A stretch of 64,000 nucleotides of DNA. It comes from Tieghemostelium lacteum (lineage: Eukaryota; Evosea; Eumycetozoa; Dictyosteliales; Raperosteliaceae). Position 1 is the stretch's first letter, and each line of letters starts with the position of its first letter. Below, piece after piece: positions 14,363 through 37,537 of this stretch. Below the pieces are notes generated by a model, which saw nothing but the letters and a program-made list of their open reading frames with translations, was not told the origin of the DNA and ran no database searches. A program made the position numbers and the translations under genes. The DNA is taken from positions 62,001 to 126,000 of the forward strand of contig LODT01000004.1 of assembly GCA_001606155.1 (NCBI GenBank). Direction: 5' to 3'.

Positions 14363-17300
14363 TCACATTTGTTTAATGTGTGAGATTTTTTGAATTACAA
14401 AGTTGGTTGTACTATTGACTAGTTGGTGGTGTGAAAATAAATATTTAGATTCAGGGTAGGCTTCAGTTAGTTCAGAGAGATATTGAGATGTTGAGAGTGA
14501 GTCAATACCATATTCTTTCAATTTTAATTCGGTATTGAATATTTCTGGTTCAATTGAAAGAATGTTTGATATAATAGATACTATACTATTATATATACTT
14601 TGAGATGAACTTTGAATTTTGATAGTTTCACCACCAATGAATGCTGATACTATATCATGTTTATCAATAAAATGTTCAATTTTGGGACGATTTGGTTTTT
14701 CTGTACAATATAGTTTTACATGATCTATATCTACTATTAGGAAATTACTTAAAGACTGGTTACTCAAGGATAAATCAAAACCACCAAATAGTTTTGGAAC
14801 TGAAAGTGCATTCAAACCTTCTGATTTTAGTTGTTTTGCAACTGATTCTCTTCTGGCTACAACTCCACCTCCACTTAATGGTCCAAAATTGATGCTGGTA
14901 CAAGAAAGACCATGTGAAGTTCTGTATTTAGCCAAACTGTCTAAAACCCAATTGGCACTTGTGTATGGACAATCTTTAGTTTGACCAAAATGTGAGGCAA
15001 TTGATGAGAATAGAATGAAATTATCTAAAGACCATTTAAGTTCTAATGAGAGTTCATGAAGATTTATGGCTCCATATGCTTTGGGTTTGTGAGTGTATTG
15101 GAGTGCATCTATTTTTATATCTTCAAATTCAGTGTGAGCATAGATTGTAGCAGCATGGAATACTGATTTGATTTTGAGTTGTTGTCCAATTTCAAATTGA
15201 ATTTTATCAAGAGATGATTTGATTTCATCTTTTGATGAAACATCACATTGTTGGAAATGGATTCTGAGGTGAGTTGTTGATGTTTTACAGTAGTTAATCA
15301 ACCATTCTAATTCCCATTTCAATGGTGAAATTGAAAGAACAACAATGTTTCTAAGTTCTGGTGAACATCTTTGAAGAATCCATTTAATGATTGGAATGGT
15401 GATACCAGTTTGACCAGTTATCAACAATGTTTCTTTGAGATTTGTCAATTGATATTCATCTTTTGGAATGTGTTGATGTTCATCATTCATTTGTTGAATC
15501 ATTGGATTGAATACCAATTCATTCAAATTCTCCATATTGACAACAAGTTTACCAATGTGTTTACTTTTACCAATTTCTTCAATTGCTTCTTTTGCTTGAT
15601 TGCATTGAAATTCTCTGATTGGAATTAAATCTATTTCATTTCTTTCAATTGCTAGTGCTATCTCTGGTAGTAGATATAAAACTATATCAAAGCCATATTT
15701 ATCAATAATATTAATATCTAAAGTTTGATAGCCTTTAGAAAATTGGAATTGACCAAGATCAAGAGTTTCATTTTCAATCAAATGAGTGACTGAAAGATCA
15801 AATATTCTTCCAATTTCAGTGAGACAATTGAAATTCGAACTCAAGAAATCACCAGAAAGAGTATTGATAATGAAATCAACACCTCCATATTGTTCTTTGA
15901 TTTTGGTTGAGAATGAATGATTTCTTGAATTGAAATAATCAGTAATAATATCTCCATAGTGGTTACGAAGGTATTCTTCTTTTTCTGGTGATCCACAACT
16001 TACAAATACTTTTCCTTTGAATTGTTTCCATTTCAAAATATTTAAAGCTGATAACCCAACACCTTCACTTGCGGAATGAATGAGAACTGATCTGGCCATA
16101 TTCAATTGAGATAAACAGTAATTGGATGTTATATAAACCAATGGAATTGATGCAGCTTGTGTCCAATTGATATTATCAGGTTTTAAAATAAATCCACCTT
16201 CTTTTTCTATAACATGTGAAACCAGTGTATTTTGGGACAATCCAAATACTTTATCACCAATTTTCAATCTCTTGCAATCAGATCCAATTCTTGTGACAAT
16301 ACCCGCGCATTCCAATCCAAATGGTGGGTTGTAAAGATCATGTCCCTCAGGATACATTCCTTGAGGAATAAGAGCTTTGAAATACATGAGATCTTTGAAA
16401 TTGATTCCAACTGCCATCACTTGAACTTCGATTTCATTTGGTTTCAATGATTTCTTTGGTTGAAGTTGATAATTCAATTTTGGATCACATTTAATACACA
16501 ATTTAGTTGGATCAGTTTCATAGGATAGAGTAGTGGTGGATTGATATTCTCTGAATAATCTCTGAACTTGAACTATTCCATTTCTGATGATGAAATCTTT
16601 GTCATGAAAATCATTATCAAATAGAATTCTGGTGAGTTGTGAATATTCAAATGATTTGATTGATTCCTCATCAAAATCAAATGAATATGGGTCACCTTTA
16701 AGTTCATTGATCAAGTATTTATATGATCCAATCAAAGATCCATTGAGATAGTTCTTCACAGATTCACCTTGTGAATTTATTGTCAAAAGAATGTATTTTC
16801 CTTTGAACCCAATCTTGTGAAGGTTTTGGTAAACCTTTAGATAGTCAACAGTTACATTGAGATAATTATCTTTAGTGAGATGTTGATCGCATCCATAAAA
16901 GAAAATCAAATCATTATCATTCAATTGTTGAGTATTCAACTTGAATTGTTCAAATTCAACTTGATTATTACAATCAATAATAATTTTGTTTTGATTTCTG
17001 AAGATAGATTCGAGATTTGATTCCATATCTTCAATTTTTGGTGATTGACTAATGAATATATAATTCATTGTTGATTGTTGGGGTTTAATATTACTATTAG
17101 TATTATTGTTGTTGATGAATAGTGGTTCATTTTGAAAAATGGAAATCAATGGATTGCATTGAAATCCTTTCAAATTAGAAATCCATTTATCATCAGATAC
17201 TGTATTACTGGTTGAATATCTTATATTATCTTCAGTTGAGGTTTTCATATTGTTGTTGAAAGTTGTTGAACCAATGATGATCAACCAACCAGATGGTAAA

Positions 17301-20300
17301 AGTAACCTTTTGATTTGATGAATGGTTGAATTGGTGATTGAAAGATTAACCAATGGAAGAACAATCAAATCATAATTTGATGTTGTGAAGAATTCTTTAT
17401 CAATATCAAATTGATCAATTTCACTTCTCATTGAACGTGTTTTGATTGAAATTTTGGAATATTTAGATTGGTTAGGAACTGGCTGGACAATTGATTTTTC
17501 AATTTCAAAACAAGTGAATTCAATTTCGACATTATCATTCATTCTTGATTCAGTTGCTGATAGTATTTGCTGAATGAATGGTTGTTCTTGCTGTTTATTG
17601 TCAAAATAGAGAATTTTAATGAGATGTTTGGATGTCTTTGGAATATTTAGGTTATTGAGAAGTTGATTTATAATTGAATGAATATTTATTTCATCAATAA
17701 TATTATCATTATTTTGGTTTTCATTATTATTGTGTACTATTTTGTCAATTTTGGGAGGTAAATTAGTTGGTGGTGAAGAAAGGACTGATTCTTTGGGTTG
17801 CCAATACAATTTATATAAATTTTTGGTTGGATATTTAATTCTATATGTTTTTTCACTTTTTTTCTCTCTTGTTAGTGATGTGACTTTGGGATACAATTTA
17901 ATGATTGCTTTACCATTTGTTGGGTTGATTATATAAACTGGACTATTGACTAAATCGACAATATGGTTAATTGCTTTAGTGTAACTATATAGGATTGATG
18001 GTTGGTCAGATGTCATGTTAGATGGAAAGTATTGAAGATTCTTAACACTTTCAAATACAATTTCTTGTGGTGGTTCGAGTAAAGTAATTCCTCCATGACT
18101 TGTGGAATCAAGTGTGGAAGCATTGAAATAATACTCGTCAAAAGTGTTTGTGGCATCGATCACTGAAAGTAGTGAACTTTTTCCTATTGATAATGATTGA
18201 ATCTTTTGGAATGATGGACCATAAGGTAATCCTAAAAGTGAAAGTCTTTCATAAACATCTTTCTTATTGATAGTTGTGAATGAGCATTCTTGTTGAATTT
18301 TAGAGATATCAAATTGAGTTGAACTGTAGTCTAATAAATGTAATCCAAATCTACCATGACATGAGGGAGTCCATGTTTCACTGTTCGAATATCGATAATA
18401 GAAATCAATTCTGAATTCATTCTTTGTCATTGTTGATTGAATTGATGTTTGAAGAATAACTGGAATATCTTCTGAAATCTTGATTGGTTTATCAAATGAG
18501 AGATTATAGATTGTCAAATCTTGTTTTGGATATTGTTTCAAAATGATATCAATGTATCCACATCCTGGGAATAGATATTGACCTCTTGAAATATGACCTT
18601 TCAAGAATTGGAATGTTGGTTTTTTCAAATCAATTACAACTTCTAATACTAGATTTCCGTTTGATTTATGTTGTCCAAGAAGATTAGTTGGTGGAATTAA
18701 ATGTTTCTTGACAATTTTTGGTGCATTCCAATATTCTTTTGAATCCCATTGATATTTGGGAATCCAATTAACTCTATCTTTATAATCATTGTTTATATTA
18801 TTGAATGTATCAGCACCATCAAGATATCCACTAAATAAAGAGTGAATCTGACCAGAATTGAAATTCAATTGAATTCCATTGCAATACAATTGTGAGAGTG
18901 TTGATTGAATGTTATCAATATCATGTACCTTTTTACTGAGTGTTGGTAAACAAATAAATTTAGATTTGTTGTTGTTGTTGGGTTGTATTGATTTTGGAAT
19001 GTAAAATGAAAGAGTTGGATGTGGTGATATTTCAATGAAAATTGTTGATTTGGTGCTTTTTTGGAAAAATTTTGAGATATTGAGAATTGATTCATTGAAT
19101 TTGACAGGTTGTCTCAGATTTTGAAAGATAAATTCTGAATTGAAGAATGATTCTCCTTTCAATTGATCTCCTGTGACTGTTGAAAAGAATGGAATATCAG
19201 GGTTCATTGATGGAGGGAGATCTGAAAGAATTGATATCATTTCATCTCTAATGATATCTTGTTTGGATGAATGGAATGAACATGGTGTTCCTAACATTGT
19301 GGCGAATATTCCATCTTCTTGAAGTTGATCTTGAATAATTCTCAATGATTTTTCAGATCCTGTAACAACAATTGAATCTGGTGAATTGAAACATGCAATT
19401 TCAATATCATCATTCAATTCATCATTGTCATGATTTTTATGTTGTTGTTTGAATTCATTGTATTTTTCAATTCCAATTCCAATTGAAAGCATTCTTCCAC
19501 TTCCAATTGTTTTCTGTTGACATCTTGATCTGTGATAAACAATCTTAACTGCACTTGAGAGTGAAATGATATTCGAACAAAGTGCTGATGTTAATTCTCC
19601 GAAACTGTAATTTGAGTAAAATGAATATTAGAATTATAAAGATAATGAAAATAAAAGTAAATATTAAACATACCTGTGACCAACAACAGCATCAGGTTGA
19701 ATTCCCCAACTTTTGAGAAATTCAATCAATGCATATTGAATCAAGAATAAACTTGGTTGTGCGAGAATTGGTTGATGAATCAATTGATCTTTATCTTGAT
19801 CAGAAAGTGATCTCAATTGTTGAAGAATTGAATATCCAAAGTATTCTTGAAGCATTGAATCACATTTATCAATTGATTCTTTGAATACAGTGTTGTTGTT
19901 GTAAAGTTGTTCACCCATTCCTTTCCATTGTGGTCCTTGTCCACAGAATACAAATACAATTGATGGTCTGATTCCATCAAATGATGTTGATGAGTTGGAA
20001 GTGAGATTTACTTTTGTTTTTGAAATCATTCCAATCTTTACAAGTCATCATCATTCTGTGTTTGAGTTGATCATCTTTTGATTGGCATTGATATTGAACA
20101 AAATCAATGAATCTTTGTTGTTTCATTTCATCAGAATCATTTTGATTTTCAATAATATCAACAATTGATTGATGATATTTATCAAATGAAACTTGTGAAT
20201 TTACTGAAAATGGAATCAAATACTCTTTTGACTGAGAAGATGATGCGTTTTCAATAGTAAGTGGAGTGTTTCTATTTTGTTTATTCTGATCAATGAATTC

Positions 20301-21581
20301 TTGAAAAATCATACAACAATTTGATCCTTTCAATCCAAAACTATTGATTCCCATGATAATTCCTTTATCATTATGATAAGGTGTGATATCCATTGATTGA
20401 GTTACAACATTGATATTCCATCCATCAAAATCAATTTTAGGATTGGGTGTGTGAAAATTGGTGTTTGGAGCTAATTTTCTATGTTTTAACATCATTGCAA
20501 CTTTAATTACAGATGCAACTCCTGCGGTTGATTCAGTGTGTCCAATGTTAGATTTAAGACTTCCGATATATAATGGTTTATCTTTAGAATGATTATCTTT
20601 GAAAACCATTGAAAGTGCTTTAACTTCAATTGGATCACCAACTGGAGTACTGGTTCCATGTGCTTCAAAGAATTGAATATCACCAGCTGAAACACCGCTT
20701 AACTTGATAGTTTGTGAAATATTCTCAAATTGAGATATTTTGGATGGTTGATTGGCGAAATTTTTGTGATTTTGACCATCAGAATTCGATCTTGATCCTT
20801 TAATGACACAATAGATTCTATCTTGATCTTCAATTGCTTGAGATAGTTTCTTTAGAATGACTAATCCAGCACCTTCACCACGAACATATCCATCTGCATC
20901 AGCATCAAATGTTCTTGAAATTCCTGATTTACTCAACAAACCAAGTTTAGAGAATGCTATAGAAACAGCAGGATCTAAAAGTGCATTAACACCTCCACAA
21001 ACTGAAATTTGAGATTGTCCAGTGATAATTGATTGACAACCGAGATGAATTGCATTCAATGATGATGAGCATGCGGTATCTAATGAAATTGAAGGACCTC
21101 TGAAATCATAATGAAATGATAAAGAATTTGATAGAGAAAAAACACTGGACAACTTTCCATTGTAATTCATTGAATTATCATCATTGAGTCCAACATAATC
21201 TTGATTCATAGCACCAATGAATACAGAAGTATCAGAACCTTTCAATTCAGATGCTTTGATATGAGCATCTTCTAATGCTTCCCAAAGTACCATCAAAAGA
21301 AGTCTTTCTTGTGGATCTTTAAACAACGATTCCTTTGAAGAAACACCAAAAAACATTGAATCAAAGTTCTTCCAATGGCTCATATCAATCAAACCAGCTC
21401 TTGGACCATTTATAACACCTTGTTCATTGAATGATTTTGACCATCTTTCATTTGGAATCTCAACAATTCCATCAAATGGTTTTTGTTGATTTTGAAGATT
21501 TTTCCAAAATTCTAAAGGTGTATTTGAGTTTCCAGGTAATCTACAACCAATACCTATTATTGCTATTTCGTTAATATCCAT
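14363..21581 (-). CDS. Type I reducing polyketide synthase, copy 1 (one-base frameshift)
   Basis: Iterative HR-PKS, about 2382 aa if the frame is read through. Exon 1 is 21581-19674, the intron 19673-19605, exon 2 19604-14363. Order: KS (Cys about 171 in DTACSSS; EAHGTST and NIGHTES histidines), AT (GHSFGE, Ser about 636), DH (GHISRGQYLFPG, His about 975), a methyltransferase-like stretch without a SAM glycine motif (about 1270-1400), ER (HSASEGVG, with Glu for the usual first Gly; about 1680-1985), KR (TGQTG, later CPYTSAN) and ACP (YGIDSL, Ser about 2336). No thioesterase or fused type III domain. Compared with copy 2, one extra base at 20010 shifts frame between KS and AT; exon lengths sum to one base over a multiple of three. 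Either a recent pseudogene or an assembly error. Head-to-head with type III PKS A. Confidence 0.85.
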
Positions 21582-21910
21582 CAATAACTCTAAATAAAGA
21601 TAAAATATCAAATTTATCAATTTATAATAAACATTTTAAACAATTTTTCTATTTTTAGATTGTTATTAATAACATTGTATTTTATTAAAATACTAAATAG
21701 GTCATTGCTATTATTGCTAAAATGTTATCATGACATTGCATAAAAAATACAAAAAAACAATTTGTGTTTTTTTTACAAATTTAGTGTTAACAGTTTTAAA
21801 AAGTAAAAAGTTTATTATCAACCCCTATGTTGTATTATAGATATAATTAATATTTTAAAATCATGTTCATCACGTAAAAATAAATAATTATTTATTAAGA
21901 AGTGATTAAA
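21582..21910. promoter_or_regulatory. Shared divergent promoter, type I PKS 1 / type III PKS A
   Basis: 329 bases separate the two opposed start codons. The interval is A+T-rich, with several A/T-runs (21748-21765, 21771-21777) and no ORF. The arrangement suggests common regulation of a type I and a type III polyketide synthase. Confidence 0.45.
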
Positions 21911-23038
21911 ATGATTTCCAATATAAACCCAAAAATTTTTAGTATAGGAACATCCAATCCTAAATTTAAGATTAATGTAGATAATTTCTTAAGTGAAAAG
22001 GAAATTAAAGAAAAGGTAAATCAACTTTTACCAAAAGTAGCATTTAGACCTTACTTTTTAACTAAAAGGCTTTTTAAAAAGTTTTTGGGTGTTGATAGCC
22101 TATACTTGCATTTTGATTTGTTAGAAAAAATTAGAGCATCATCCAAGCAACAAATTCATTTTTTTGAAAATGTTGGTAATGCTGCTTTAGAAATTTCTTA
22201 TTCATCAGCTCAGATAGCTATAAATAATTGGGGTGGTAATCCAAAGAATTTGACACATTTCATTTATATTAGTTCAAGTGATATGGAGGATTTTTCAATT
22301 GATCTCATACCAATGTTGGGGTTAAGAGATGATATTGAAAGATTTCCAATATTTTATCAAACTTGTCACTCTGGATTGTCAGGTCTTAGATTGGCAGATA
22401 AATTGGCAAGGATAAATCCAAAGAATAGGGTACTGTTGGTATCAACTGATATGCCAAACAAGAATTTTAATAATTTTAGTACTATTACTTCGTTTGGTAT
22501 GACATTAGCTTTTGGTGATGGTTCTGCATCTTTAGTGATTGGAATGAGGGAGTCAGATATAGAATGTAAACCCCTATTTGAAGTTCTTTCAGTCTCAACT
22601 AAAATAGTCCCAGACACCTATAAGGATTTAGAAATGACCTACACTGATAACAATATAAATATTGTTCATACTAGAAATTTACCCATTCACCTGTCATCCA
22701 ATGTCCCAGGATTTGGAAGACAGATTATTGAAAATTCCAATTTAGCATCTCTTGATCTCTCATTATCCAACTATCAATTGATTTTTCATTCTGGTAAGAA
22801 ATCAATTATACAAGCTAACGCAAAAGCCACTAACTCCAAACTAGAAGCCACCAAAAGGGTTTTCAAGAAATATGGAAATATGACCGGACCAACTGTATAT
22901 TTTGTATTAAATGAATCTAGAAACTTAAAATGGAAGAGTGAATATGGAATCATGAATTCTTTTGGTTTTGGGTTAGTTCTTGAAGGTGCTTTAATTAAAA
23001 ATCTAAATATTAAAACTGACAAAGTGATGAAAAAATGA
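21911..23038 (+). CDS. Free-standing type III polyketide synthase A (intact triad)
   Basis: Chalcone-synthase-fold enzyme of 375 aa, no intron. It starts MISNINPKIFSIGTSNPKF; the codon three triplets upstream is GTG, so 21911 is the first ATG. The thiolase-fold catalytic triad is present: Cys152 in FYQTCHSGLSG, His293 in FHSGKKS (family usually HPG) and Asn323 in GNMTGPT. The C-terminal loop (MNSFGFGLVLEGAL) stands where plant enzymes have the conserved GFGPG. Such enzymes condense malonyl-CoA units onto an acyl starter and cyclise the product; in D. discoideum the known type III enzymes are C-terminal domains of Steely PKSs, whereas this one is a separate gene. A plausible role is accepting the acyl chain from a neighbouring type I PKS ACP. 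Confidence 0.88.
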   Translation: MISNINPKIFSIGTSNPKFKINVDNFLSEKEIKEKVNQLLPKVAFRPYFLTKRLFKKFLGVDSLYLHFDLLEKIRASSKQQIHFFENVGNAALEISYSSAQIAINNWGGNPKNLTHFIYISSSDMEDFSIDLIPMLGLRDDIERFPIFYQTCHSGLSGLRLADKLARINPKNRVLLVSTDMPNKNFNNFSTITSFGMTLAFGDGSASLVIGMRESDIECKPLFEVLSVSTKIVPDTYKDLEMTYTDNNINIVHTRNLPIHLSSNVPGFGRQIIENSNLASLDLSLSNYQLIFHSGKKSIIQANAKATNSKLEATKRVFKKYGNMTGPTVYFVLNESRNLKWKSEYGIMNSFGFGLVLEGALIKNLNIKTDKVMKK

Positions 23039-23300
23039 AAAATTGTGTATATCATAAAAAATAAATGTGTTTTGAATTAGATTCTAATATTAGAAAAGGA
23101 AATTAGAAGGGTGAATTTAGTTCTAAACTCAGCAAATTTTAACTCTTTTATATTGGTTCTGTTATATACTAAAAAAGAATTGATTATGCCAGAAGATAAA
23201 TAAATGCTATTTTTTGGACACATGATAAAATGAAGCCTTTTTTAATCTTTATCTAAAAGAATATGCTTTCACCGTTAATTTTAAAATTATATTTTATTGT

Positions 23301-23442
23301 AAGTGGGGAACATCCAATCCTAAATTAAGTATAAATATCGTTTTAACAACCTTTTTAGTTAAAAAGTAAGTGACGTCATTTGATTTTGGGTTATATCTTG
23401 TAGGTGTTTTAAATTAAAAATCTACATATTAAAAATAAAATG
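23301..23442 (+). pseudogene. Relic of a third type III PKS gene
   Basis: Two short blocks match the ends of the type III PKS A gene in the same order and orientation. Bases about 23304-23335 (ggaacatccaatcctaaat...) match the 5' coding end near 21945-21975, and about 23380-23440 (gattttgggtta...aggtg...ttaaaaatcta...) match the 3' coding end near 22965-23020. The roughly 1-kb interior is missing. There is no open frame. This is the remnant of a tandem duplicate that lost its middle. Confidence 0.65.
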
Positions 23443-23488
23443 GATTAAAGAACTTAAAAATCCATTCAATAATCTTGAGATTGATGTT

Positions 23489-24592
23489 TTATTTAAATTG
23501 TAAATTTCTTAAGAGAGTTCCTTCAAGTGAGATACCAACCCCATAGGAGATAACAAATGAAAATTCAGATTTGAAAATAGATTGTCTTGCCAAATCCATG
23601 ATAAAGAAAACAGTTGGAGCACATAAATTACCAATTGTTTTTTGAATTTCCAAAGTGTGTCTACAATGGTCTGGTTTCAATGAAAGTGATTTCATATTCT
23701 CTTCAAGGACTCCATTGGATCCTGGGTGGAGGAGGTATTCATATTGCCAAAGATCATCTGGTAATTGAATTAAACCCTCATAGTTCTTTAAAATGGTTCT
23801 ACAGAAGTTCACTATATTTGAACTTACACTTGTTTTAAATGGTTCTGATTTTTGTAGATACTGAAAACCGTATTTAGATGTATACATTGTCATCAGTTCC
23901 TTGGTACTAGGGATAACGTAGTTACCATAAGATAGCAACTCATAAATTCCACCAGGACCTTGTCCAACAACCATAGCAGCACTTCCATCTGAACATCCTA
24001 AGAAACTTTGAATTTTCTCTTGATCTGATGCTTGTGGACTAAAAGTTACATTTAAACTTGGTAAATCAGTAATGACAACTAGAATCATATTTTTACTATC
24101 TAGTCTTGACAATTGAGCAGCTGTTCTCAAACATGATAATGCACCATGTTCAGATTGATAATTAATTGAAAATCTCTCAATATCTTCATTTAGACCTAAC
24201 AACCCAATTAAATCAAAAGAGGAATCAGGTACTTTTAATCCACTGCATGATGAGAATAGTACATGGGTAAGGTCTTTTACATTTCCACCCCACTCTTTTA
24301 AAGCAACTTTACAAGCTTCATGAGAGAGTTTTGATACATTATCCAAGTAAATATAGTTTTTTTCTTCTGTATTTTTAGCAGTTCCCATATAATCTTTAGA
24401 TGACTCAACACTGTAATCCAATACTGTATATCTAGTCTCCACTGGTAATTTATCAGCATATTCTCTGACATATTGAATTTGATCATTTGATAATTCTGGG
24501 TGTGCTGATAGAAACACATTCACATTATCCACTGTATTACTTTTAAATTCTGCCAATTTGGTACCAATAGAAAATATTTTAGGATTCTCCAT
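23489..24592 (-). CDS. Free-standing type III polyketide synthase B, Cys replaced by Glu
   Basis: A 367-aa intronless chalcone-synthase-fold protein starting MENPKIFSIGTKLAEFK, clearly a paralog of type III PKS A. His289 (LLHPGS) and Asn322 (IGNLCAPT) of the triad are kept, but the nucleophile position, aligned through YQ(S/T)-x-H in both proteins, is Glu148 (NYQSEHGALS; codon GAA at 24151-24149). A Cys six residues later (Cys154) is on the following helix and is not the equivalent residue. The fold is otherwise complete and the frame is open, so this is not simple decay. It may be a malonyl decarboxylase, a non-covalent condensing enzyme or a partner for A. In known KSQ domains and CHS Cys-to-Gln variants, loss of Cys leaves decarboxylation. 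Confidence 0.88.
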   Translation of the reverse strand: MENPKIFSIGTKLAEFKSNTVDNVNVFLSAHPELSNDQIQYVREYADKLPVETRYTVLDYSVESSKDYMGTAKNTEEKNYIYLDNVSKLSHEACKVALKEWGGNVKDLTHVLFSSCSGLKVPDSSFDLIGLLGLNEDIERFSINYQSEHGALSCLRTAAQLSRLDSKNMILVVITDLPSLNVTFSPQASDQEKIQSFLGCSDGSAAMVVGQGPGGIYELLSYGNYVIPSTKELMTMYTSKYGFQYLQKSEPFKTSVSSNIVNFCRTILKNYEGLIQLPDDLWQYEYLLHPGSNGVLEENMKSLSLKPDHCRHTLEIQKTIGNLCAPTVFFIMDLARQSIFKSEFSFVISYGVGISLEGTLLRNLQFK

Positions 24593-25615: not shown

Positions 25616-25631
25616 ATTAACATTATTTATT

Positions 25632-27332
25632 TTAATATATAGCATATTTTAGTGTATTTTCAAATTCTTCTTCTTCTTCCTCTTCATCTTCAATCTCTTG
25701 ACTATAGTTCCTAAATTTGGTATTGGTTGGTTGTTGATATACATTTTCATCATCATTCTCATCAAATTGCAAACTATCAGGAATCTCTATAAATTCGCTG
25801 TTTTCAGTAGTATTATTACTTTTTAGAAGTTTAGTTGGGGATGTTTGTGAAGGTATTTCAGATGGATATTTAGAGATTGGGGATATTGCACTTGATTCTA
25901 GTGTTGATGTTTGATGATTAGGTTGTGCTGATACTGATGTTGTTCTAGATGGGGTTATTGAACTACTTTTAATTATTGTAGATTTAAATTGAAATTCTAG
26001 ATTATTGTTAGTGTTTTCAAAAGAGTCTTCAAAATCTACATCAGTTAAATCTACAGAATTCTCACATGGTATAGTAAGAGATTCCGTTTCATCATTATCA
26101 ACTGAGATGTCATTTGTTAAAACTATTATTCTACCCTTATTTGAATTACTACTCTGAATATCCACTTGATCAAATTTTCTTTTGTTTGGTGATGTTGGTG
26201 GCTGTAAAACTACTGGTGTGGTAGTTCTAATATTACTATTATTATTATTAGTGTGGTTGTTGTTGTTATTGGGAGTTGGTAGAACTGGTGACAATAATGT
26301 AAGATCAATATCAGATGGTTGCTTAGATACAGGTTGAAAGTAATTTGATATCGGGTTATTACTGGTCTTAGTTGTTGTGGTGGTGGTTGTGGTTGCTGAT
26401 TTCTTTTTACTTATTTTTAGAGATTGTAGTGGTAATTTAGATGGTGATTGAGGGGCTTCTGTGAAACTTTTAGGAATAATTCTATTTACATTGGAGGTAT
26501 CTGTTGTAGTTGAAGTTTGACTATTTGATGTTGAATTTGTTGATGTGCTATTGGATTGTGTTGCAGGTTGAAAGAATCTATCTATACCATTAGTCGAGTA
26601 ATACTCTTTCATTGGTTTAATTAGATCTTCTGAATTATTTTTAATATTATTTACAAGGGTGGCAACACGATGAAAAGATAAATTCTTTGTGTAACCTTTT
26701 AATAGCATTGAATAGACTTCTTCAAAATTCTCATTCTTATCCAGATATTTATCAATAACTGTTTTATCGGTGAGAATTAGTGGCATTCTATCGTGTACAT
26801 GACCAATATCCTTATAAGCATCAGTTGTAATAATTGAATATCTATATTCATCCTGACCTGTAAATTTACTCTTTTTAATCTCATATATAGCTGCCATAAG
26901 AATCATTGATTTTTGTTTAGTGGTTGTATCTGGTGTTGTAGATGAATTACTGAAATTATAGGTATCAGCTGGCATATAAAAGAAATAAGGTAAAGGTGTA
27001 GTAGAAGGGTTCTTTAAATCTCGATGCCATTCATAGTAACCTTCGGCAGTTACTAAACATCTATTCTTTCTAAACAAGTTCTTGTAATACCCATTCTTTA
27101 CCAATGTATCACAACGAATGTTTATAAGATCATAATTAGGGTCAGGACCAATACCACCCCATCTCATTGTATATATAACTCTAGAATGATTTATAGTTAC
27201 TATAGTTGGTTGTTGACAATGTACTGTTACATTATAACTTGGTCTATATCCTTGATTATCATTAATTTGTTGAACATTTACTCTTGCACCTATATCTTCA
27301 GGTCTAAGTGTCTGTGCTGCTCTTCCACACAT
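25632..27332 (-). CDS. hmces: HMCES / SRAP-domain abasic-site protein with long tail
   Basis: A 566-aa intronless protein. Met-Cys-Gly at the N-terminus exposes catalytic Cys2 after Met removal; it forms a thiazolidine crosslink with abasic sites in single-stranded DNA. The SRAP domain (residues 1 to about 250) has PSYNVTVH, RWGGIGP, the Glu motif AEGYYEW and the His motif HDRMPLIL. The tail (250-566) is low-complexity Thr/Ser/Asn/Pro with two PIP-box-like aromatic clusters (IDRFFQP about 252-258, SNYFQP about 331) and SUMO-interaction-like strings (IIVLT, VDLT). Human HMCES also has a C-terminal PCNA-binding box; the tail here is much longer than usual. It ends in an acidic stretch of Glu. 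Function by family: shielding abasic sites at replication forks. Confidence 0.9.
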   Translation of the reverse strand: MCGRAAQTLRPEDIGARVNVQQINDNQGYRPSYNVTVHCQQPTIVTINHSRVIYTMRWGGIGPDPNYDLINIRCDTLVKNGYYKNLFRKNRCLVTAEGYYEWHRDLKNPSTTPLPYFFYMPADTYNFSNSSTTPDTTTKQKSMILMAAIYEIKKSKFTGQDEYRYSIITTDAYKDIGHVHDRMPLILTDKTVIDKYLDKNENFEEVYSMLLKGYTKNLSFHRVATLVNNIKNNSEDLIKPMKEYYSTNGIDRFFQPATQSNSTSTNSTSNSQTSTTTDTSNVNRIIPKSFTEAPQSPSKLPLQSLKISKKKSATTTTTTTTKTSNNPISNYFQPVSKQPSDIDLTLLSPVLPTPNNNNNHTNNNNSNIRTTTPVVLQPPTSPNKRKFDQVDIQSSNSNKGRIIVLTNDISVDNDETESLTIPCENSVDLTDVDFEDSFENTNNNLEFQFKSTIIKSSSITPSRTTSVSAQPNHQTSTLESSAISPISKYPSEIPSQTSPTKLLKSNNTTENSEFIEIPDSLQFDENDDENVYQQPTNTKFRNYSQEIEDEEEEEEEFENTLKYAIY

Positions 27333-27632
27333 CTTATTACTTTAAATTACTTGATTAATTATTATTATTATTATATATTTCAGTACTTTTATATACCTAA
27401 AATAAAATTTAAAAAAAAAGCGCGGTTCCAAAATTTCCAAGAAGAAATTTTTTAGTTAATAATTATTATTAGGTGAAGTCGGATTTACAGTTGTAACTAA
27501 ATTATGGTTTTTATTATTGACAATGAATAAGAGTGTTGATGATGATTTACAGTTGTAACTAAATTATTGATTTTGTTTTTCTATTTTACTTTATGACACG
27601 TGAAATAAAAGGTGTATAGAAATGATAAACCT
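27333..27632. other. Intergenic region with a 24-nt direct repeat
   Basis: About 300 bases between the HMCES start and the CSN7 stop. A 24-base perfect direct repeat (gatttacagttgtaactaaa...) lies at 27482-27505 and 27544-27567, 38 bases apart. No ORF. Confidence 0.5.
27482..27567. repeat. 24-nt direct repeat pair
   Basis: Two identical copies of a 24-base sequence beginning gatttacagttgtaacta at 27482 and 27544. The spacer (38 bases) has no obvious structure. It may be a regulatory element pair upstream of HMCES or a replication-slippage duplication. Confidence 0.7.
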
Positions 27633-28744
27633 TTATGGTCTCTTGAACATATCTTTACCTTTACCTTTAGTTTTTCTGTTTCTGTGATCTTCAGTAGCAT
27701 ATTCCATAGAATCGAAACCACCAATACCCATACCAAGGAAATTACCCATTTCTTGGTCAGGTTTAACATGTTGTTTGGCATTTTCAACTCTTTTATCAAA
27801 TTCCTCTTTTGATTTACGATTTTGATCGTGAACCTTGTCAGTGTATCCAATGAGATGGTGAACTTCTTTTAATAATTTATCTGATGTCTGTAACCAACCT
27901 TCCAATGTTGCAAGCATACCATCTAAACTCTCAACTGGAACATCTCTTCCAATTGCAAAATGAATTTCTAAGTGTTTATTCTTTTGATCTAATTTACCTT
28001 TTATAATATTCTACAATAATATTGTTATGTTATCATCACAAGTTTGTTAGTTGGTATTATTCACTATTCAAATTTAGACTAAAAATAAATACCTGATATA
28101 TAGAATCAATAATTAAATCTTCTAATTCTCTAACATTTTGAATCTCTAATTGTTCAAGTAATAAAGAGTATGGAATGACCTAATATCATAAACACAATAT
28201 AAATTAGTATTCTAATGTGGCCTATTTTAATATTTCAAAATTGAAACTATACTTTTAATGTTGAAGATAATTGCACAATTGTTAACTGTCTGAGTTTAGT
28301 AATCATAAGTGGTGACAATGATGGTAAATTATCTTTGTTACCTAGAATTAATGGTGTGATGGTTAGAAATGTGTCTTTCAAGTAAATGAGATCTAGGAGT
28401 AATAGGATGATTAAATATACTTTTATAATTTTGGTAAGATCCATAAGTGAAAATTTGGAGTAAATCATAATAGGATTTAAATTCAGATTGTTGTAACTAG
28501 TTATAGAATTAGAGTGTAAGTGACATATGATACTTGTGGTTATTTAGTTGTCTTCTAATGAATAATAATGAATATTTACTTGTTGAACATTTGGCATATC
28601 TAATAATTCACTAAATACATATACTGTAGGATGTGCTAATGCTTTTTCGATAACAGCAACACATGCCTTACCTTTAGAACTCTTGGCTAATACTATAAAC
28701 TGTTTTAAATCTGTACCCTCTGTTAAATTATCAGTTTGTGCCAT
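27633..28744 (-). CDS. csn7: COP9 signalosome subunit 7 (CSN7)
   Basis: PCI-domain subunit of the COP9 signalosome, which removes Nedd8 from cullin-RING ligases. Five exons: 28744-28580, 28496-28421, 28341-28253, 28179-28093 and 28010-27633; all junctions are in frame, giving 264 aa, the usual length. Visible family blocks are LKQFIVLAKSSKGKACVAVI, YYDLLQIFTYGSYQNY, ITKLRQLTIVQLSST, IPYSLLLEQLEIQNVRELED and the PCI winged-helix segment IIKGKLDQ...IGRDV. The C-terminal helix and basic tail (HRNRKTKGKGK) follow. It is dense with introns, unlike the polyketide genes around it, which argues that it is an old resident gene within the cluster. Transcribed toward HMCES. Confidence 0.9.
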
Positions 28745-29086
28745 CTCTCAATGCTGTTCAATAAAATCAATCAAAAAAAAAATAAATTAAATTTTGATAA
28801 AAAAAAAAAAGAAAAAAATATGAAAAATATCTTAAAAGATTTATATTTGAATAATGGTGTTTGTGGAGTTGACAACTAATATATGGTATAGATTCATAAT
28901 TTCGGAGCCTGGGTTGATTCAATTAATCAATTCCATATTCTCTCAATTTGATCTGTTAGATATCAGAAAGATTAATTGATTAAAAGAAATTTATCGACAT
29001 TAAATATATTGTTTTCGGTATATTAATTATTCCTAGATAATTTCATTTTATTTAAAAATACAGATGAAGGGTTTGTGTAACATACT
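28745..29086. other. Intergenic region with a PKS ACP-like scrap
   Basis: 342 bases between the CSN7 start and the PKS 2 stop, with A-runs at 28770 and 28799-28816. Bases 28928-28956 resemble, on the minus strand, the ACP-coding segment of both PKS genes (LREYGID, aligned with LKEYGID / LKDYGID), suggesting a degenerated 3' PKS fragment. Confidence 0.35.
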
Positions 29087-32000
29087 CTATAGTTTTTGAG
29101 AAAGTTTTTGAATGATAAAGTTTGTTGAATTGGCAATTAGTTGGTGATGTGAGAATAAATTGGATGCTTCAGGGAAATGTTGAATGAGTTTGATTTGATA
29201 TTGAGATGTTAGAATGGAATCAATACCATAATCTTTCAATTTGAGATCTGTGTTGAAAGACGAGGTTTCAATTGAAAGAATTTCAGTGATAATAGATACT
29301 ACTGTATTGTATATATTTTGATTGGAGTTCTGGTTACTATTACTGTTTATAAATTGTTGGTTACCCATTTTTTGTAGTAGTAAATCTGGTTTTTCAATGA
29401 GATGTTCTATTCTGGTTCTTGCAGGTTTTTCTACAGAATATAGCTGATACAGGTCTGCGTCACCCAAAAAGAAATTAGTTATTGACTTTTGGTTATTGAA
29501 ACAAAAGTCAAGGGCACCAAATGTATTGGGAAGTGAAAGTACATTTAAACCTTCAGATGCGAGTCTTCTTGCTATAATATCTCTTCTAGCTACAATTCCA
29601 CCGCCTCCCAATGGTCCAAAGTTGATACTGGTTCCTGATAATCCAAGTGATTTTCTGTATTTAACTATATTGTCTAATATCCAGTTGGAAGAGGTATATG
29701 GACAATCTTTTTGTTCACCAAATTGAACTGAAAATGTAGAGAACATAAAGAAATTGTCTAATGACCATTCAAGTTCTAGTGAAAGTTCATGAAGATTTAT
29801 GGCTCCATGTGCTTTGGGTTTGTGAGCATTTAAAAGTTCATTCAAGCTTAGATCTTCAAATTCAGTGTATCCATAATAGGTAGCAGCATGGAATACTGAT
29901 TTGACATTGAGATGTTGTCCAGTTTGAGTTTCAATTCTATCAAGAGATGATTTGATTTCATCTTTTGATGAAACATCACATTGTTGGAAATGGATTCTGA
30001 GGTGAGTTGTTGATGTTTTACAGTAGTTAATCAACCATTCTAATTCCCATTTCAATGGTGAAATTGAAAGAACAACAATGTTTGTGAGATTTGGTGATCT
30101 TTTCTGAAGAATCCATTTAATGATTGGAATGGTGATACCAGATTGACCAGTAATAAGAATGGTTTCTCGTAGATAAGTCAATTGATATTCATCTTTTGGA
30201 ATGTGCTGATGCTCATCATTCATTTGTTGAATCATTGGATTGAATACCAATTCATTAAATTGTTCCATATTGACAACAAGTTTACCAATGTGTTTACTTT
30301 TACCAATTTCTTCAATTGCTTCTTTTGCTTGATTGCATTGAAATTCTCTGATTGGAATCATTTCTAATTCCCCTTTACTAATTGCTTCTGTCATTTCATC
30401 AAAAAGAAGTTTATAGTAATCTTCTTCATCCATTAAAGTGTAGGTGAGTTCTACAGCTTGATAACCTTTAGCATATTGGAATTGACCAAGATCAAGAGTT
30501 TCATTATCAATTAGATGGTTAACTGAAAGATCAAATATTCTTCCAACACTTGTTAGACAATTGAAATTTGAACTTACATAATCACCAGAAAGAGTATTGA
30601 TAATGAAATCAACACCTCCATATTGTTGTTTGATTTTGGTTGAGAATGAATGATTTCTTGAATTGAAATAATCAGTAATAATATCTCCATAGTTGTTACG
30701 AAGGTATTCTTCTTTTTCTGGTGATCCACAACTTACAAATATTTTTCCTTTGAATTGTTTCCATTTCAAAACATTCAAAACTGCAAGTCCAACACCTCCA
30801 CTTGCGGAATGAATGAGAACTGATCTGGCCATATTCAATTGAGATAAACAGTAATTGGATGTTATATAAACTAATGGAATTGATGCAGCTTGACTCCAAC
30901 TTATATTGTCAGGTTTTAAATTGAAACTACCTTCTTTTCCAATAACATGAGAACCTAAGGTATTTGGAGTCACTCCAAATACTTTATCACCAATTTTCAA
31001 TCTCTTACAATCAGATCCGATTCTTGTGACAATTCCTGAACACTCCAATCCAATAGGTGGGTTATATACATTATAACCATCAGGATACATTCCTTGAGGA
31101 AGTAGTGCTCTGAAATACATGAGATCTTTGAAATTGATTCCAACTGCCATCACTTGCACCTCAATTTCATTTGCCTTCAAAGATTTCTTTGATTGAAGTT
31201 GATAGTTCAATTTTGGATCACATTTAATGCATAATTTAGTTGGATCGGTTTCATATGATCCTTTGCTTTCATTGCTTTGATATTCTCTGAATAATCTCTG
31301 AATTTGAACAATTCCATTTCTGATGATGAAATCTTTGTCATGAATATCATTATCAAATAGAATTCTGGTGAGTTGTGAATATTCAAATGATTTGATTGAT
31401 TCTTCATCAAAATCAAATGCATATGGGTCACCAATGTGTTCACTGACTAAATACTTAAAAGTTCCAATCAAAGATCCATTGAGATAGTTCTTCACAGATT
31501 CACCTTGTGAATTCATTGTCAAAAGTATGTATTTTCCTTTGAATCCATTCTTGTGAAGATATTGGTCAACTTTTAGATAACTCTCTACTGCATAGATATA
31601 ATTATCTTTAGTAAGATGTTTATCACACCCATAAAAGAAAATCAAATCATTTTCATTCAATTGTTGAACCTTCATCTTGAATTGTTCATATTCAACTTCA
31701 TTATTAAAGTCAATAACAATTTTGTTTTGATTTCTGAAGATGGATTCGAGATTTGATTCCATTTCTTCAATATTTGGTGATTGACTTGTGATTATATAAT
31801 TCATTCGATCTTGAGATTTAGTATAGTTTTTGTTGAATAGAGATCCATTCTGACAGATGGTTATTGATTTATTAAAATCAATTTGTTGGAATCCGATTTC
31901 ATTTAGATAAGATGTCAATGGGTTCTTGGAGTTTACGGTGTTTGGACCATTTTCATCATTAATGAGCATTAACCACCCAGAAGGCAAAAGAAGTCTCTTT

Positions 32001-35000
32001 ACTTCTAGAATATAATTGTGCTGGTGTTCTTCCATTGGTAGAATAATTAAATCATAGTTTACAGGATTAAGATGTTCTTTTTCAATATCAAATTGATCAA
32101 TGCCCGAGGATAACATTGTTCTTGTTTTGATTGTAATGTTGGGTAATTGAGGTTTATATTGGAGATCTTTGTTGTGAATAGGAGGTATCAAACTAGTGAA
32201 TTCAATCTCTATATTATTATGATTTGGGTGAGTTCTAATTGTTGATTCAATTGTTGAGACTATCTGTTGAATAGATGATGGATGTTGGTTGTTGTTATTA
32301 AAATAGAGAATTTTAATAACATGTTTAGATATTGATGTGATAGGGAGATTGTTGAATAATTGATTTACGCTAGATTGGATTATTGAACTATTGTGGTTTA
32401 TATGGTGTGTTGGTGAAGAAAGAATTGATTCTTTAGGTTGCCAATAGGCTTTGAATAGTTTGTTGGTTGGATATTTAATTTTGAAATTATTGAAATTACT
32501 GATTTTAACTCGGATTAGGGATGCTACTTGTACTTGCATCTTTATGAGTATTTTACCATTGGCTGGGTTGATTACATACACTGAACTATTGGTTTTATCA
32601 GCAACTTGATCATGTGATTTACCATGTGTATAGAGGGTAGTTGGATGATCAGATGTAATGTTTGATGGAAAGTATTGAAGATTCTTAACACTTTCAAATA
32701 CAATATCTTGTGGTGGTTCGAGTAGAGATAATCCACCGTGGATTGAAGAGTCTAGAGTTGCAGCATTGAAATAGTAATCGTCATGAGTATTAGTTGCACT
32801 TACTGTTGCAAAATAAGAATCTTTACTTAATGAAATTGATTGAACTTTTTGGAATGATGGTCCATAAGGTAACCCAATCTGCGCAAGTCTTTCATAAACG
32901 TCCTTCTTTTTGATAGTTGTGAATGAGCATTCTTGTTGAATTTTAGAGATATCAAATTGGGTTGGAGTGTAATCTTGTGGACGCAATCCAAATCTACCAT
33001 GACTTGAACGAATCCAGGTTTCACTGTTAGAATATCTATAATAGAAATCAATTCTGAATTCATTCTTTGTCATTGTTGATTGAATTGATGTTTGAAGAAT
33101 AACTGGAATATCTTCGGAGATTTTGATTGGTTTTTCAAATGAGAGATTATAGATTATCAAATCTTGTCTTGGATATTGTTTCAGAATAATATCAATGTAT
33201 CCACATCCTGGGAATAGATATTGACCTCTTGAAACATGACCTTTTAAAAAATGAAATGTTGGTTTTTTCAAATCAATTACAACTTCAAATATTAGATTTC
33301 CTGTTGATCTCTGCTGTCCCATTAGACTTCTAGGTGGAATCAAGTGTTTCTTTACAACTGCTGGTGCATGCCAAAATTCTTTTGAATCCCATTGATATTT
33401 GGGAATCCAATCAACTCTATCTTTATATTCATTTGATTGATGTTGACCAAATAGAGCAGAATTGAATTCCAATTGAATTCCATTACAATACAATTGTGAG
33501 AGTGTTGATTGAATGTTATCAATATCATGTACCTTTTTACTGAGTGTTGGTAAACAAATAACTTTAGAGTTGCTGTTGTTGTTGGATTGTATTGATTTTG
33601 GAATATAAAATGAAAGAGTTGGATGTGGTGATATTTCAATGAAAATTGTTGATTTTTCAATATTATTTTCATTGTTGTTGTTTTGTTGTTGAAGGAATTT
33701 TGAGATATTAAGAATTGATTCATTGAATTTGACAGGTTCTCTCAGATTTTGAAAGATAAATTCTGAATTATAGAATGATTCACCACAAACTTGATCTCCT
33801 GTGACTGTTGAAAAGAATGGAATCACTGGATTTTGTGATGAAGGAAGATCTGAAAGAATTGATATCATTTCATCTCGAATAGACTCTTGTTTAGATGAAT
33901 GGAATGAACATGGTGTTCCTAACATTGTGGCGAATATTCCATCTTCTTGAAGTTGATCTTGAATAATTCTCAATGATTTTTCAGATCCTGTAACAACAAT
34001 TGAATCTGGTGAATTGAAACATGCAATTTCAATATCATCATTCAATTCATCATTGTCATGATTTTTATGTTGTTGTTTGAATTCATTGTATTTTTCAATT
34101 CCAATTCCAATTGAAAGCATTCTTCCACTTCCAATTGTTTTCTGTTGACATCTTGATCTGTGATAAACAATCTTAACTGCACTTGAGAGTGAAATGATAT
34201 TCGAACAAAGTGCTGATGTTAATTCTCCGAAACTGTAATTTGAGTAAAATGAATATTAGAATTATAAAGATAATGAAAATAAAAGTAAATATTAAACATA
34301 CCTGTGACCAACAACAGCATCAGGTTGAATTCCCCAACTTTTGAGGTATTCAATCAATGCATATTGAATCAAGAATAAACTTGGTTGTGCGAGAATTGGT
34401 TGATGAATTAATTGATCTTTATCTTGATCGGAAAGTGATCTCAATTGTTGAAGAATTGAATATCCAAAGTATTCTTGAAGCATTGAATCACATTTATCAA
34501 TTGATTCTTTGAATACAGTGTTGTTGTTGTAAAGTTGTTCACCCATTCCTTTCCATTGTGGTCCTTGTCCACAGAATACAAATACAATTGATGGTCTGAT
34601 TCCATCAAATGATGTTGATTGGTTGGAAGTGAGATTTCTTTTGTTTTTGAAATCATTCCAATCTTTACAAGTCATCATCATTCTGTGTTTGAGTTGATCA
34701 TCTTTTGATTGGCATTGATATTGAACAAAATCAATGAATCTTTGTTGTTTCATTTCATCAGAATCATTTTGATTTTCAATGATATCAACAATTGATTGAT
34801 GATATTTATCAAATGAAACTTGTGAATTTACTGAAAATGGAATCAAATACTCTTTTGACTGAGAAGGTGATGCGTTGTCAATAGTAAGTGGAGTGTTTCT
34901 ATTTTGTTTATTCTGATCAATGAATTCTTGAAAAATCATACAACAATTTGATCCTTTCAATCCAAAACTATTGATTCCCATGATAATTCCTTTATCATTG

Positions 35001-36226
35001 TGATAAGGTGTGATATCCATTGATTGAGTTACAACATTGATATTCCATCCTTCAAAATCAATTTTAGGATTAGGTGTGTGAAAATTGGTGTTTGGAGCTA
35101 ATTTTCTATGTTTTAACATCATTGCAACTTTAATGAGTGATGCAACTCCTGCAGTTGATTCAGTGTGTCCAATGTTAGATTTGAGACTTCCAATGTATAA
35201 TGGTTTATCTTTAGAGTGATTATCTTTGAAAACCATTGAAAGTGCTTCAACTTCAATTGGATCACCAACTGGAGTACTGGTTCCATGTGCTTCAAAGAAT
35301 TGAATATCACCAGCTGAAACACCACTTAATTTGATGGTTTGTGAAATATTCTCAAATTGAGATATTTTTGATGGTTGATTGGCGAAATTTTTGTGATTTT
35401 GACCATCAGAATTCGATCTTGATCCTTTAATGATACAATAGATTCTATCTTGATCTTCAATTGCTTGAGATAGTTTCTTTAGAATGACTAATCCAGCACC
35501 TTCACCACGAACATATCCATCTGCATCAGCATCAAATGTTCTTGAAATTCCTGATTTTCCAAGTAATCCAAGTTTTGTAAAACCAATTGAAACAGCAGGA
35601 TCTAAAATTGCATTAACACCTCCACAAACTGAAATTTGAGATTGTCCAGTGATAATTGATTGACAACCGAGATGAATTGCATTCAATGATGATGAGCATG
35701 CGGTATCTAATGAAATTGAAGGACCTCTGAAATCATATTGAAACGATAAAGAGTTAGATAGAGATGAGAGACTAGCTATCTTTCCACTATAGTTTGTTAA
35801 AGTATCATCATCAAGTCCAACATAATCTTGATTCATTGAACCGATGAATACAGAAGTATCAGAACCTTTCAATTCAGATGCTTTGATATGAGCATCTTCT
35901 AATGCTTCCCAAAGTACCATCAAAAGAAGTCTTTCTTGTGGATCCTTCATCAACGAATCCTTTGAAGAAACACCAAAAAACATTGAATCAAAGTTCTTCC
36001 AATGGCTCATATCAATCAAACCAGCTCTTGGACCATTTATAACACCTTGTTCATTGAATGATTTTGACCATCTTTCATTTGGAATCTCAACAATTCCATC
36101 ATATGGTTTTTGTTGATTTTGAAGATTATTCCAAAATTCTAAAGGTGAATTTGAGTTTCCAGGTAATCTACAACCAATACCTATAATAGCAATATCATTA
36201 TTATTATTATCTTTATTTTCTACCAT
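29087..36226 (-). CDS. Type I reducing polyketide synthase, copy 2
   Basis: Intact iterative HR-PKS of 2356 aa. Exon 1 is 36226-34302, the intron 34301-34233 (69 nt), exon 2 34232-29087. Start MVENKDNNNND at 36226 is preceded by AAAAA. Order: KS (DTACSSS, EAHGTST, NIGHTES), AT (GHS Ser642, whose codon AG|T is split by the intron), DH (GHVSRGQYLFPG, His about 974; LDSSIHG), a methyltransferase-like region lacking a SAM glycine loop (about 1275-1400), ER (about 1650-1955; HSASGGVG intact), KR (about 2000-2185; TGQSG, CPYTSSN) and ACP (YGIDS, Ser about 2315). No release domain. The product should be a reduced acyl chain left on the ACP unless released in trans. It is a close paralog of copy 1, with near-identical stretches in KS, AT and KR. 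Confidence 0.95.
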
Positions 36227-36676
36227 TTTTATTTTTAATGCATAATAAATGTGAAAATGACAAGAGTATTTATACACTTTCCAAAATCTAATTCTAACTA
36301 TTTATTTTGTTGTTGTTATTCTAGATTATCAAAATATAAAATAAAAATACTCATATGATTTATAGATAGAATTACATCATCTGTATAAAAATCTACTTAA
36401 ATCTAAAAAACAAAAAAATTTATTCGTACACTTTTTTGAAGTTTAAAGACGAATGAATATTAAGAATATCTAAATATTTATATCGTATATTTATAGATTT
36501 AAAAATTGAAATAAAATATGAAAGTAAAAAAATGTAAATAGATTCTTTCAGAATTTAAATTCAATGGATAATTTTAAAAGAGATATTTCAAATTTTATGT
36601 AATATATAATAATTATTAATATTTTTTTTAATTTTATATATTTTAAATTTATATATATGTATTTTTAAAATATACA
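36227..36676. promoter_or_regulatory. Shared divergent promoter, type I PKS 2 / SDR
   Basis: 450 bases between opposed starts, very A+T-rich, with a T-run at 36620-36629 before the SDR start. No ORF seen. The arrangement parallels the PKS 1 / type III A pair and suggests coordinated control. Confidence 0.4.
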
Positions 36677-37537
36677 ATGTCAAACAGAGTAGCATTAATT
36701 ACAGGATGTTCAAGTGGTATAGGTCGTGATATAGCCAGAGCATTGTTTAACTATAAATATGAAAACATTGTAGTTTATGCATCTGCTAGAAATCTAAATA
36801 GTATTGAGTTCCTGAAAGCTGAAGGAATGAATATAGTCCAACTGGATGTAACTGACCTACAATCTATAAAAGATGCCATAAAGACTATTGTTGACAAGGA
36901 AGGAAAGCTAGATATTCTAGTTAACAATGCAGGCATGACTTACTTCAGTCCAGCTATTGAACTTAAACATGAGGAAACTAAAAAGATTATGGACACCAAT
37001 TTCATAGGTCTTGTAGATACCACTATTGAAGCATGTAAATACATGATACCTAGAAAAACCGGTCTAATTATAAACATTGGTAGTGTTTTAGGTCTAATCA
37101 GCACACCTTACACTGGTGCCTATTGTGCTAGTAAAGCTGCTATTCGTGCATGGTCTGATAGTTTGAGAATGGAATTGGACCCTTTTAACATTAAAGTGTC
37201 TATAGTAATGCCAGGGGCTATAAAATCAGAGATTGCCAATAATGCACAAGACACACTTCAAAAAACTCTGGCACAGACTCTCTATGAACCTATTAAAAAT
37301 TTTATTATAATGCGTTCTGAGGAATCTCAAAAAAATGGTTTACCAAGTGAGGCATTTGCAGACTATGTTGTAAAGAAATGTCTGTCTTCTAGGCCCCCAA
37401 AAAAACTATTATATGGTCCATTGTCGTCCCTCTTTGGACTTGTTCAATTCCTTCCAACTATACTCATTGATTTTGTTCTCAAAAAGAAATTTGGTCTTTT
37501 ATATTTTAGAAATTATCTGAATAGTAATTCAAATTAA
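36677..37537 (+). CDS. Short-chain dehydrogenase/reductase (classical SDR)
   Basis: A 286-aa intronless SDR. The N-terminal Rossmann motif TGCSSGIG (about 9-16), the Asp of QLDVTD, NNAG (about 84-87), the catalytic Ser in IGSVLG and YCASK (Tyr/Lys of the active site) are all present, so the enzyme looks active. Lack of an acidic residue at the end of the second strand (SARN) suggests NADPH. The C-terminus has a hydrophobic segment (LFGLVQFLPTILIDFVL) that may attach it to membrane, as in the acyl-dihydroxyacetone-phosphate reductase / Ayr1-like and retinol-dehydrogenase-like groups. Substrate is unknown. Its head-to-head position with PKS 2 makes a polyketide-tailoring ketoreductase role plausible, but a lipid role is equally possible. 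Confidence 0.85.
   Translation: MSNRVALITGCSSGIGRDIARALFNYKYENIVVYASARNLNSIEFLKAEGMNIVQLDVTDLQSIKDAIKTIVDKEGKLDILVNNAGMTYFSPAIELKHEETKKIMDTNFIGLVDTTIEACKYMIPRKTGLIINIGSVLGLISTPYTGAYCASKAAIRAWSDSLRMELDPFNIKVSIVMPGAIKSEIANNAQDTLQKTLAQTLYEPIKNFIIMRSEESQKNGLPSEAFADYVVKKCLSSRPPKKLLYGPLSSLFGLVQFLPTILIDFVLKKKFGLLYFRNYLNSNSN

Follow-up and report, generated by a model that had tools for sequence, protein, structure and literature searches.

Separate genes related to the Steely type III domain in a polyketide synthase neighbourhood of Tieghemostelium lacteum

Steely enzymes are polyketide synthases (PKSs) in which a type III PKS is fused behind the acyl carrier protein (ACP) of a type I PKS. These hybrids make MPBD, THPH or similar compounds, the chain being handed over from the ACP. 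Such fusions are reported across the dictyostelids and not elsewhere (PMC12767764), and one of them, StlB, is described as well conserved, with its domain architecture, through the dictyostelids (PMC7259674), Acytostelium included (PMC4058090). In D. discoideum stalk cells a chalcone synthase domain is cleaved from StlB (PMC9489281; PMC12767764), and this domain alone, in stlB null cells, supports CDF-1 (PMC9489281). In bacteria, in-trans transfer is reported from ArsA to ArsB/ArsC (PMC6274091) and described for CylI, in a text that calls type I/III hybrids rare (PMC8086630). Here we analyse a 64,000-nucleotide stretch of DNA from the dictyostelid Tieghemostelium lacteum (the window; contig LODT01000004.1, positions 62,001 to 126,000), in which two type III genes, III-A and III-B, stand between two reducing type I PKS genes, PKS1 and PKS2.

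III-A and III-B have open frames of their own and are not fused behind an ACP as in a Steely hybrid. The locus is real, and its sharpest fact is a type III paralogue with glutamate in place of the catalytic cysteine. The reading that we tentatively favour, at a rough probability of 0.4, is that of a dictyostelid polyketide neighbourhood where kin of Steely's type III domain are encoded by genes of their own, III-A most likely being a stand-alone type III PKS and III-B most likely a retained pseudoenzyme that plausibly dimerises with III-A. A first-pass annotation, the coordinates of which are confirmed here, had proposed a split Steely locus in which an acyl chain is handed over in trans. Such a hand-over is hypothesized from the proximity of the genes and would be plausible by the bacterial ars and cyl precedents. 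In the parts of the open-licence literature that were available, no mention of free-standing dictyostelid type III genes was found. Free-standing Steely kin beside a reducing type I PKS let one ask: is fusion needed for hand-over? This candidate natural-product locus also raises the questions of whether the type III part evolves independently too, and whether an inactive partner is compatible with a working type III PKS.

The type III genes and a relic

III-A (P1; 21911..23035, plus strand) and III-B (P2; 23492..24592, minus strand) are intronless open reading frames (ORFs) of 375 and 367 codons. Pfam finds the N- and C-terminal Chal_sti_synt domains in each, which agrees with the two separate chalcone-synthase-fold genes of the first-pass annotation, and Pfam, structure models and PDB folds alike give both the thiolase fold. 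Residue alignment, together with a best PDB match to Steely1 in each case, completes the assignment.

At the site of the catalytic Cys, III-B has Glu148, where Cys is found in all 84 bacterial and plant rows of the alignment, in Steely1 and in III-A. The gatekeeper Phe, which we take to lie in the FGDG motif, is likewise present in 84 of 84 bacterial and plant rows, in Steely1 and in III-A, and is Cys in III-B. His and Asn are kept in 87 of 87 rows, III-A and III-B among them, the count for Asn being biased, as the bacterial loci were fetched by one Asn-motif pattern and one EWG-motif pattern; neither pattern covers the Cys or the Phe site. With Glu at the Cys site, III-B misses the Cys-His-Asn triad of chalcone synthase (CHS)-like type III PKSs, which act as homodimers and extend with malonyl-CoA; III-A keeps the full triad, with Cys152, as well as the gatekeeper Phe. 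A further difference concerns the GFGPG loop, where Pro is found in 83 of the 84 comparison rows (the other has a gap) and in Steely1, and Val in III-B.

In the single-chain AlphaFold2 models, Glu148 of III-B begins helix 147-164 and Cys152 of III-A begins helix 151-168; the III-B model has a mean pLDDT of 92.2. Could another cysteine be the III-B nucleophile? The Cys of the LSCLR motif was considered and rejected: the ungapped motif alignment places Glu at the site, and the LSCLR Cys is six residues further on, within the modelled helix.

The catalytic-site codons, GAA in III-B and TGT in III-A, differ in all three bases. This difference, the open frame of III-B and a coding composition resembling that of neighbouring genes suggest that III-B was maintained after the loss of Cys. 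What might it still do? In CHS, mutants C164A, C164S and C164D make no naringenin, while malonyl-CoA decarboxylation is only modestly affected in C164A and C164S; it is severely impaired in F215S, F215W and F215Y, and among the mutants listed at F215, H303 and N336, all but H303Q have lost it or are severely impaired (PMC6274091). Given these data and the residues that III-B has lost, it should not be primed, and it is unlikely to be a good decarboxylase.

The relic of a third type III gene that the first-pass annotation had noticed is real, but tiny. It lies at 23307..23434 (plus strand), between III-A and III-B, and is recognised by its nucleotide match to III-A. The main piece, 59 nt at 23376-23434, is 86% identical to the III-A 3' end and scores 68 bits, against a maximum of 36.5 in 200 shuffles that moved two-base blocks and so provide a rough control. 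Twenty nt at 23307-23326 are identical to the 5' part of III-A, and a 30-nt piece at 23341-23370 is inverted.

Kinship with Steely1

Among all PDB sequences, the type III domain of Steely1 (2h84) ranks first for III-B (154.3 bits; next 99.6) and for III-A (129.6 bits; next 107.8), and a profile of the pair scores it at 202.4 bits, with the next entry at 138.3. It is also the first PDB fold by E-value for both models, with TM 0.92 and rmsd (root-mean-square deviation) 1.8 for III-B, where the other 49 matches listed have TM 0.87-0.91, and with TM 0.79 and rmsd 4.1 for III-A. The nearest rows to III-B by identity are III-A (31.6%) and Steely1 (30.7%).

In an 87-row tree of 80 bacterial and 4 plant sequences, Steely1, III-A and III-B, the last two pair (support 100/97) and Steely1 is the next row by path. 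This tree carried a long-branch warning and, for Steely1, III-A and III-B, an odd-composition warning; the smallest starred set that unites these three takes in 4 plant and 2 bacterial rows as well. Further trees, of 32 rows each, kept those bacterial loci whose numbers are multiples of three, as well as L001, L049 and L064, and dropped the long-branch bacteria L078, L060 and L009 together with one named row. When III-A is left out, III-B joins Steely1 with a support of 91, and when Steely1 is left out, III-A and III-B pair with 96. Steely1 was the sole dictyostelid type III sequence compared. By these comparisons III-B is Steely-type, a firm link, and III-A is probably so. The kinship with Steely supposed at the outset thus stands for III-B; for III-A, Steely1 is the best solved relative by sequence, but trees and fold figures are equivocal, as set out below.

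The bacterial rows are the best 80 of at least 515 confirmed among at least 591 matched stretches, and were chosen by likeness to Steely1 and the plant enzymes rather than to III-A or III-B; the structure models drew on 42 of the 80 proteins. A recent bacterial source of the type III genes was considered and is not supported, as identity to these best 80 rows peaks at 25.5% for III-A and 25.5% for III-B. A recent viral source is not supported either: three narrow scans of viral contigs gave 2, 55 and 18 pattern matches, none of them confirmed. Two side observations may be added. When the III-B fold was searched against viral models, the two best matches were "type III polyketide synthase" proteins of Yasminevirus and of Streptomyces phage ZL12. 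In the 87-row tree, type III PKS genes of Legionellaceae (L021, L033 and L063) fall within one 35-row branch alongside Bacteroidota.

The type I genes and their surroundings

The first-pass annotation had counted two complete type I PKSs. Matches to KS, AT, DH, ER, KR and ACP are indeed found in both by Pfam, but only PKS2 is intact. This gene (29087..36226, minus strand) encodes a KS-AT-DH-ER-KR-ACP protein of 2356 aa in a spliced frame, after removal of a 69-nt intron (34301-34233). PKS1 (14363..21581, minus strand), delimited by Pfam and nucleotide alignment, has exon 1 at 21581-19674, an intron at 19673-19605 and exon 2 at 19604-14363; it is frameshifted as assembled, and its KS is matched on a separate protein. 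The DH matches of PKS1, at 22.9 and 19.7, fall short of the respective Pfam curated scores of 27 and 23.7, although the HxxxGxxxxP motif is there, and in PKS2 one of the two DH models reaches its curated score (33.8 against 23.7). KS motifs DTACSS, EAHGTSTP and NIGHTE were read from the PKS1/PKS2 alignment, and a motif scan of the two found the DH HxxxGxxxxP, the KR Tyr and the ACP Ser. The PKS2 stretch between DH and ER gave no methyltransferase match. Behind the ACP of PKS1 and PKS2 there is no Pfam match to a thioesterase (TE) or type III domain, and the proteins terminate 42-44 residues past the YGIDS motif, which bears out the earlier statement that both type I enzymes lack these parts.

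The PKS1 frame is broken by a one-base insertion relative to PKS2, placed by nucleotide alignment in the KS-AT linker (20010..20012, near 20011, minus strand), which makes a GT; the frame then stops at 19979, after 534 codons. The exon-2 ORF has 1754 codons without a stop. The frameshift, which leaves PKS1 broken as assembled, may be a draft error or a true loss. Rescue of the frame by splicing from the new GT was considered and rejected: the shortest in-frame option listed would delete 76 nt, cutting through FVFCGQG where the AT domain begins, and PKS2 is intronless there.

PKS1 and PKS2 resemble each other unevenly. In 150-column steps, identity within the genes ranges from 64% to 100%, and it is 100% across the intron and the beginning of exon 2, including a stretch of the AT; the 69-nt intron sequence is identical in the two, and synonymous divergence (dS) is 0 in codons 1-120 of the exon-2 ORF. 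We read this mosaic as probable gene conversion, with sequence exchanged between the copies. Over the whole exon-2 ORFs, which include 23 intron bases, non-synonymous divergence (dN) is 0.165 and dS 0.420, a ratio of about 0.39, and this fits constraint on both copies.

Gene order across 14363-37537 is PKS1 (minus), III-A (plus), the relic (plus), III-B (minus), a ParB-like gene (plus), an SRAP gene (minus), a short ORF (minus), PKS2 (minus) and an SDR gene (plus). The ParB-like nuclease gene (about 24872/24905-25612) and the SRAP gene (about 25635-27338/27341), both identified by Pfam and with approximate limits, lie between the PKS genes and are not thought to be part of the PKS/type III set. 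For the short ORF (27633-28010) no family reaches its cut-off. The SDR-family oxidoreductase gene (36677..37537), the presence of which had been noted earlier and is upheld by Pfam, NCBIfam and PDB matches, is divergent from PKS2, and its link to a PKS/type III pathway is putative. GC content of the window, measured in 2-kb steps, is 25-36%, and the locus is bordered on each side by eukaryotic genes. Elsewhere in the window, two adjoining ORFs of 426 and 440 codons (60988-63883) each carry a Cu/Zn superoxide dismutase domain in their second half, and a hybrid histidine kinase with a response regulator domain is found at 50331-52031.

Competing explanations and known systems

How might III-A and III-B work together? 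For the activity of III-A, a III-A/III-B complex, the acyl source and the product we infer the following. The Cys of III-A would take a medium-chain acyl group from an acyl-CoA, possibly from the ACP of PKS2; III-A would then add malonyl units and release a small alkyl-aromatic or pyrone. Without nucleophile and gatekeeper Phe, III-B would not be primed in the normal way, and would be a plausible dimer partner. An active III-A with III-B as partner would seem the most economical reading, as one copy is Cys-less but has a sound scaffold, and the copy beside it has the Cys but is weak in its N-terminal part. Several points weigh against it. III-A scores below III-B against Steely1, and two plant enzymes are ahead of Steely1 in identity to III-A (CUS 30.0% and EnPKS1 27.3%, Steely1 27.1%, with III-B at 31.6%). 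In the tree from which III-B was left out, the shortest paths from III-A lead to CUS, EnPKS1 and 2PS and not to Steely1. Several plant enzymes superpose better than 2h84 on the III-A model (TM 0.81-0.83, rmsd 3.0-3.5), so that its fold does not single out Steely1. Identity between III-A and III-B is only 31.6-34%. The III-A model has a mean pLDDT of 84.6, with residues 41-55, 67-76 and 372-375 below 50, the first two of these stretches counting among the weak points; there is a 2-residue gap in the loop preceding the active-site motif, and Phe replaces the Pro of the GFGPG loop. Because of the lower Steely1 score, the weak model stretches, the loop gap and the lost Pro, III-A may itself be failing. 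Finally, three upstream regions compared have no 7-mer with at least three G/C in common, and thus no common motif.

Is the locus then a Steely gene come apart? Simple fission is rejected on the gene map and strands, since neither type III gene is the next same-strand gene behind an ACP and III-A points away from PKS1; on the same grounds the first-pass suggestion of a breakdown product of Steely is not supported. An unfused counterpart, in which a reduced acyl chain made by PKS2 passes in trans from its ACP to III-A, to be completed and cyclised there, is a different matter, though it seems to us unlikely. PKS2 is intact, has the full reducing domain set and shows no TE match after its terminal ACP, so that it needs some release partner, and passage from the ArsA ACP to ArsB/ArsC (PMC6274091) and from type I CylD/CylH to type III CylI (PMC8086630) provides bacterial precedents. 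Yet it is proximity that ties PKS2 to III-A, their 3' ends being about 6 kb apart with other genes inside, and the upstream regions have no motif in common. Dictyostelid PKSs usually end in an ACP and lack a TE, so this ending is not specific. The idea is weakened further by the lack of a Cys in III-B to hold an acyl chain and by the broken PKS1. Nor is a hand-over needed to explain a free-standing enzyme, as the isolated StlB chalcone synthase domain is reported to form its product in the absence of the type I portion (PMC9489281); a separate gene for a free type III unit would make sense without it. The same independence suits a reading by which the genes are chance neighbours and the type III enzymes use acyl-CoA independently of PKS1 and PKS2. 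Dictyostelids have many PKS genes: D. purpureum has 50 predicted ones, most without obvious D. discoideum orthologues (PMC3188802), and counts of 41, 6, 21 and 25 are given for four genomes (PMC4334915). The unrelated ParB-like and SRAP genes within the stretch also speak for chance; however, two free-standing type III genes, together with a relic, flanked on either side by a type I gene make a tight grouping, and we hold chance to be possible but doubtful. Fused Steely genes are probably present elsewhere in this genome, since StlB is conserved through the dictyostelids.

The relic, the frameshifted PKS1, the Cys loss of III-B and the weak N-terminal part of III-A could also be taken as stages of loss, with little or no product. 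Such decay appears improbable, as III-A, III-B and PKS2 have open frames, III-A like III-B has a neighbour-like coding composition, and the dN/dS of about 0.39 between the type I copies stands against it. A new chemistry for III-B, with Glu and the kept His and Asn serving a decarboxylase, hydrolase or binding protein, is harder still to credit: the kept residues and the modest effect of C164A and C164S on decarboxylation in CHS favour it, but the gatekeeper site of III-B is Cys, and Ser, Trp and Tyr at this site severely impair decarboxylation (PMC6274091). Could the two proteins instead share the labour, as the subunits of type II systems do? In the pairs KS-CLF and PqsBC, CLF and PqsB are regarded as lacking the Cys. 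The residue pattern here, one Cys-bearing and one Cys-less protein, fits a KS-CLF-like condensing pair, and one may picture a heterodimer in which III-A is the catalytic subunit and the Glu-bearing III-B sets chain length or docks the carrier, the acyl chain arriving in trans from the ACP of a neighbouring type I PKS. This split Steely with a type II division of labour is a long shot; excerpts of open-licence literature on type III PKS heterodimers and catalytic-cysteine loss contained no type III heterodimer, the nearest concerning type II pairs (PMC6638757). Our gradings of favoured and rival readings overlap and are not intended to sum to one.

Set beside known systems, the locus is like the KS-CLF pairs of type II PKSs (PMC6638757) and PqsBC, in which PqsC supplies the active-site Cys (PMC6204780), in having same-family condensing enzymes side by side; those pairs, which belong to other families, form heterodimers, whereas a III-A/III-B heterodimer is putative. 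With ArsA-ArsB/ArsC of Azotobacter (PMC6274091) and cyanobacterial CylD/H-CylI (PMC8086630) it has in common an ACP-bearing type I and a free-standing type III enzyme in one locus, but those systems are bacterial, with transfer reported, while here transfer is putative and the genes are on opposite strands, separated by others. The domain released from StlB (PMC9489281) is likewise a Steely-family type III unit apart from the type I part, cut there from a fusion protein and encoded here by separate genes. Steely1/StlA and Steely2/StlB themselves are fused type I/III enzymes; in T. lacteum the type III units are unfused and neither follows an ACP directly, III-B is without the catalytic Cys and PKS1 is broken, yet among solved relatives the type III domain of Steely1 is the best match for III-A and III-B alike, and a reducing type I PKS lies nearby.

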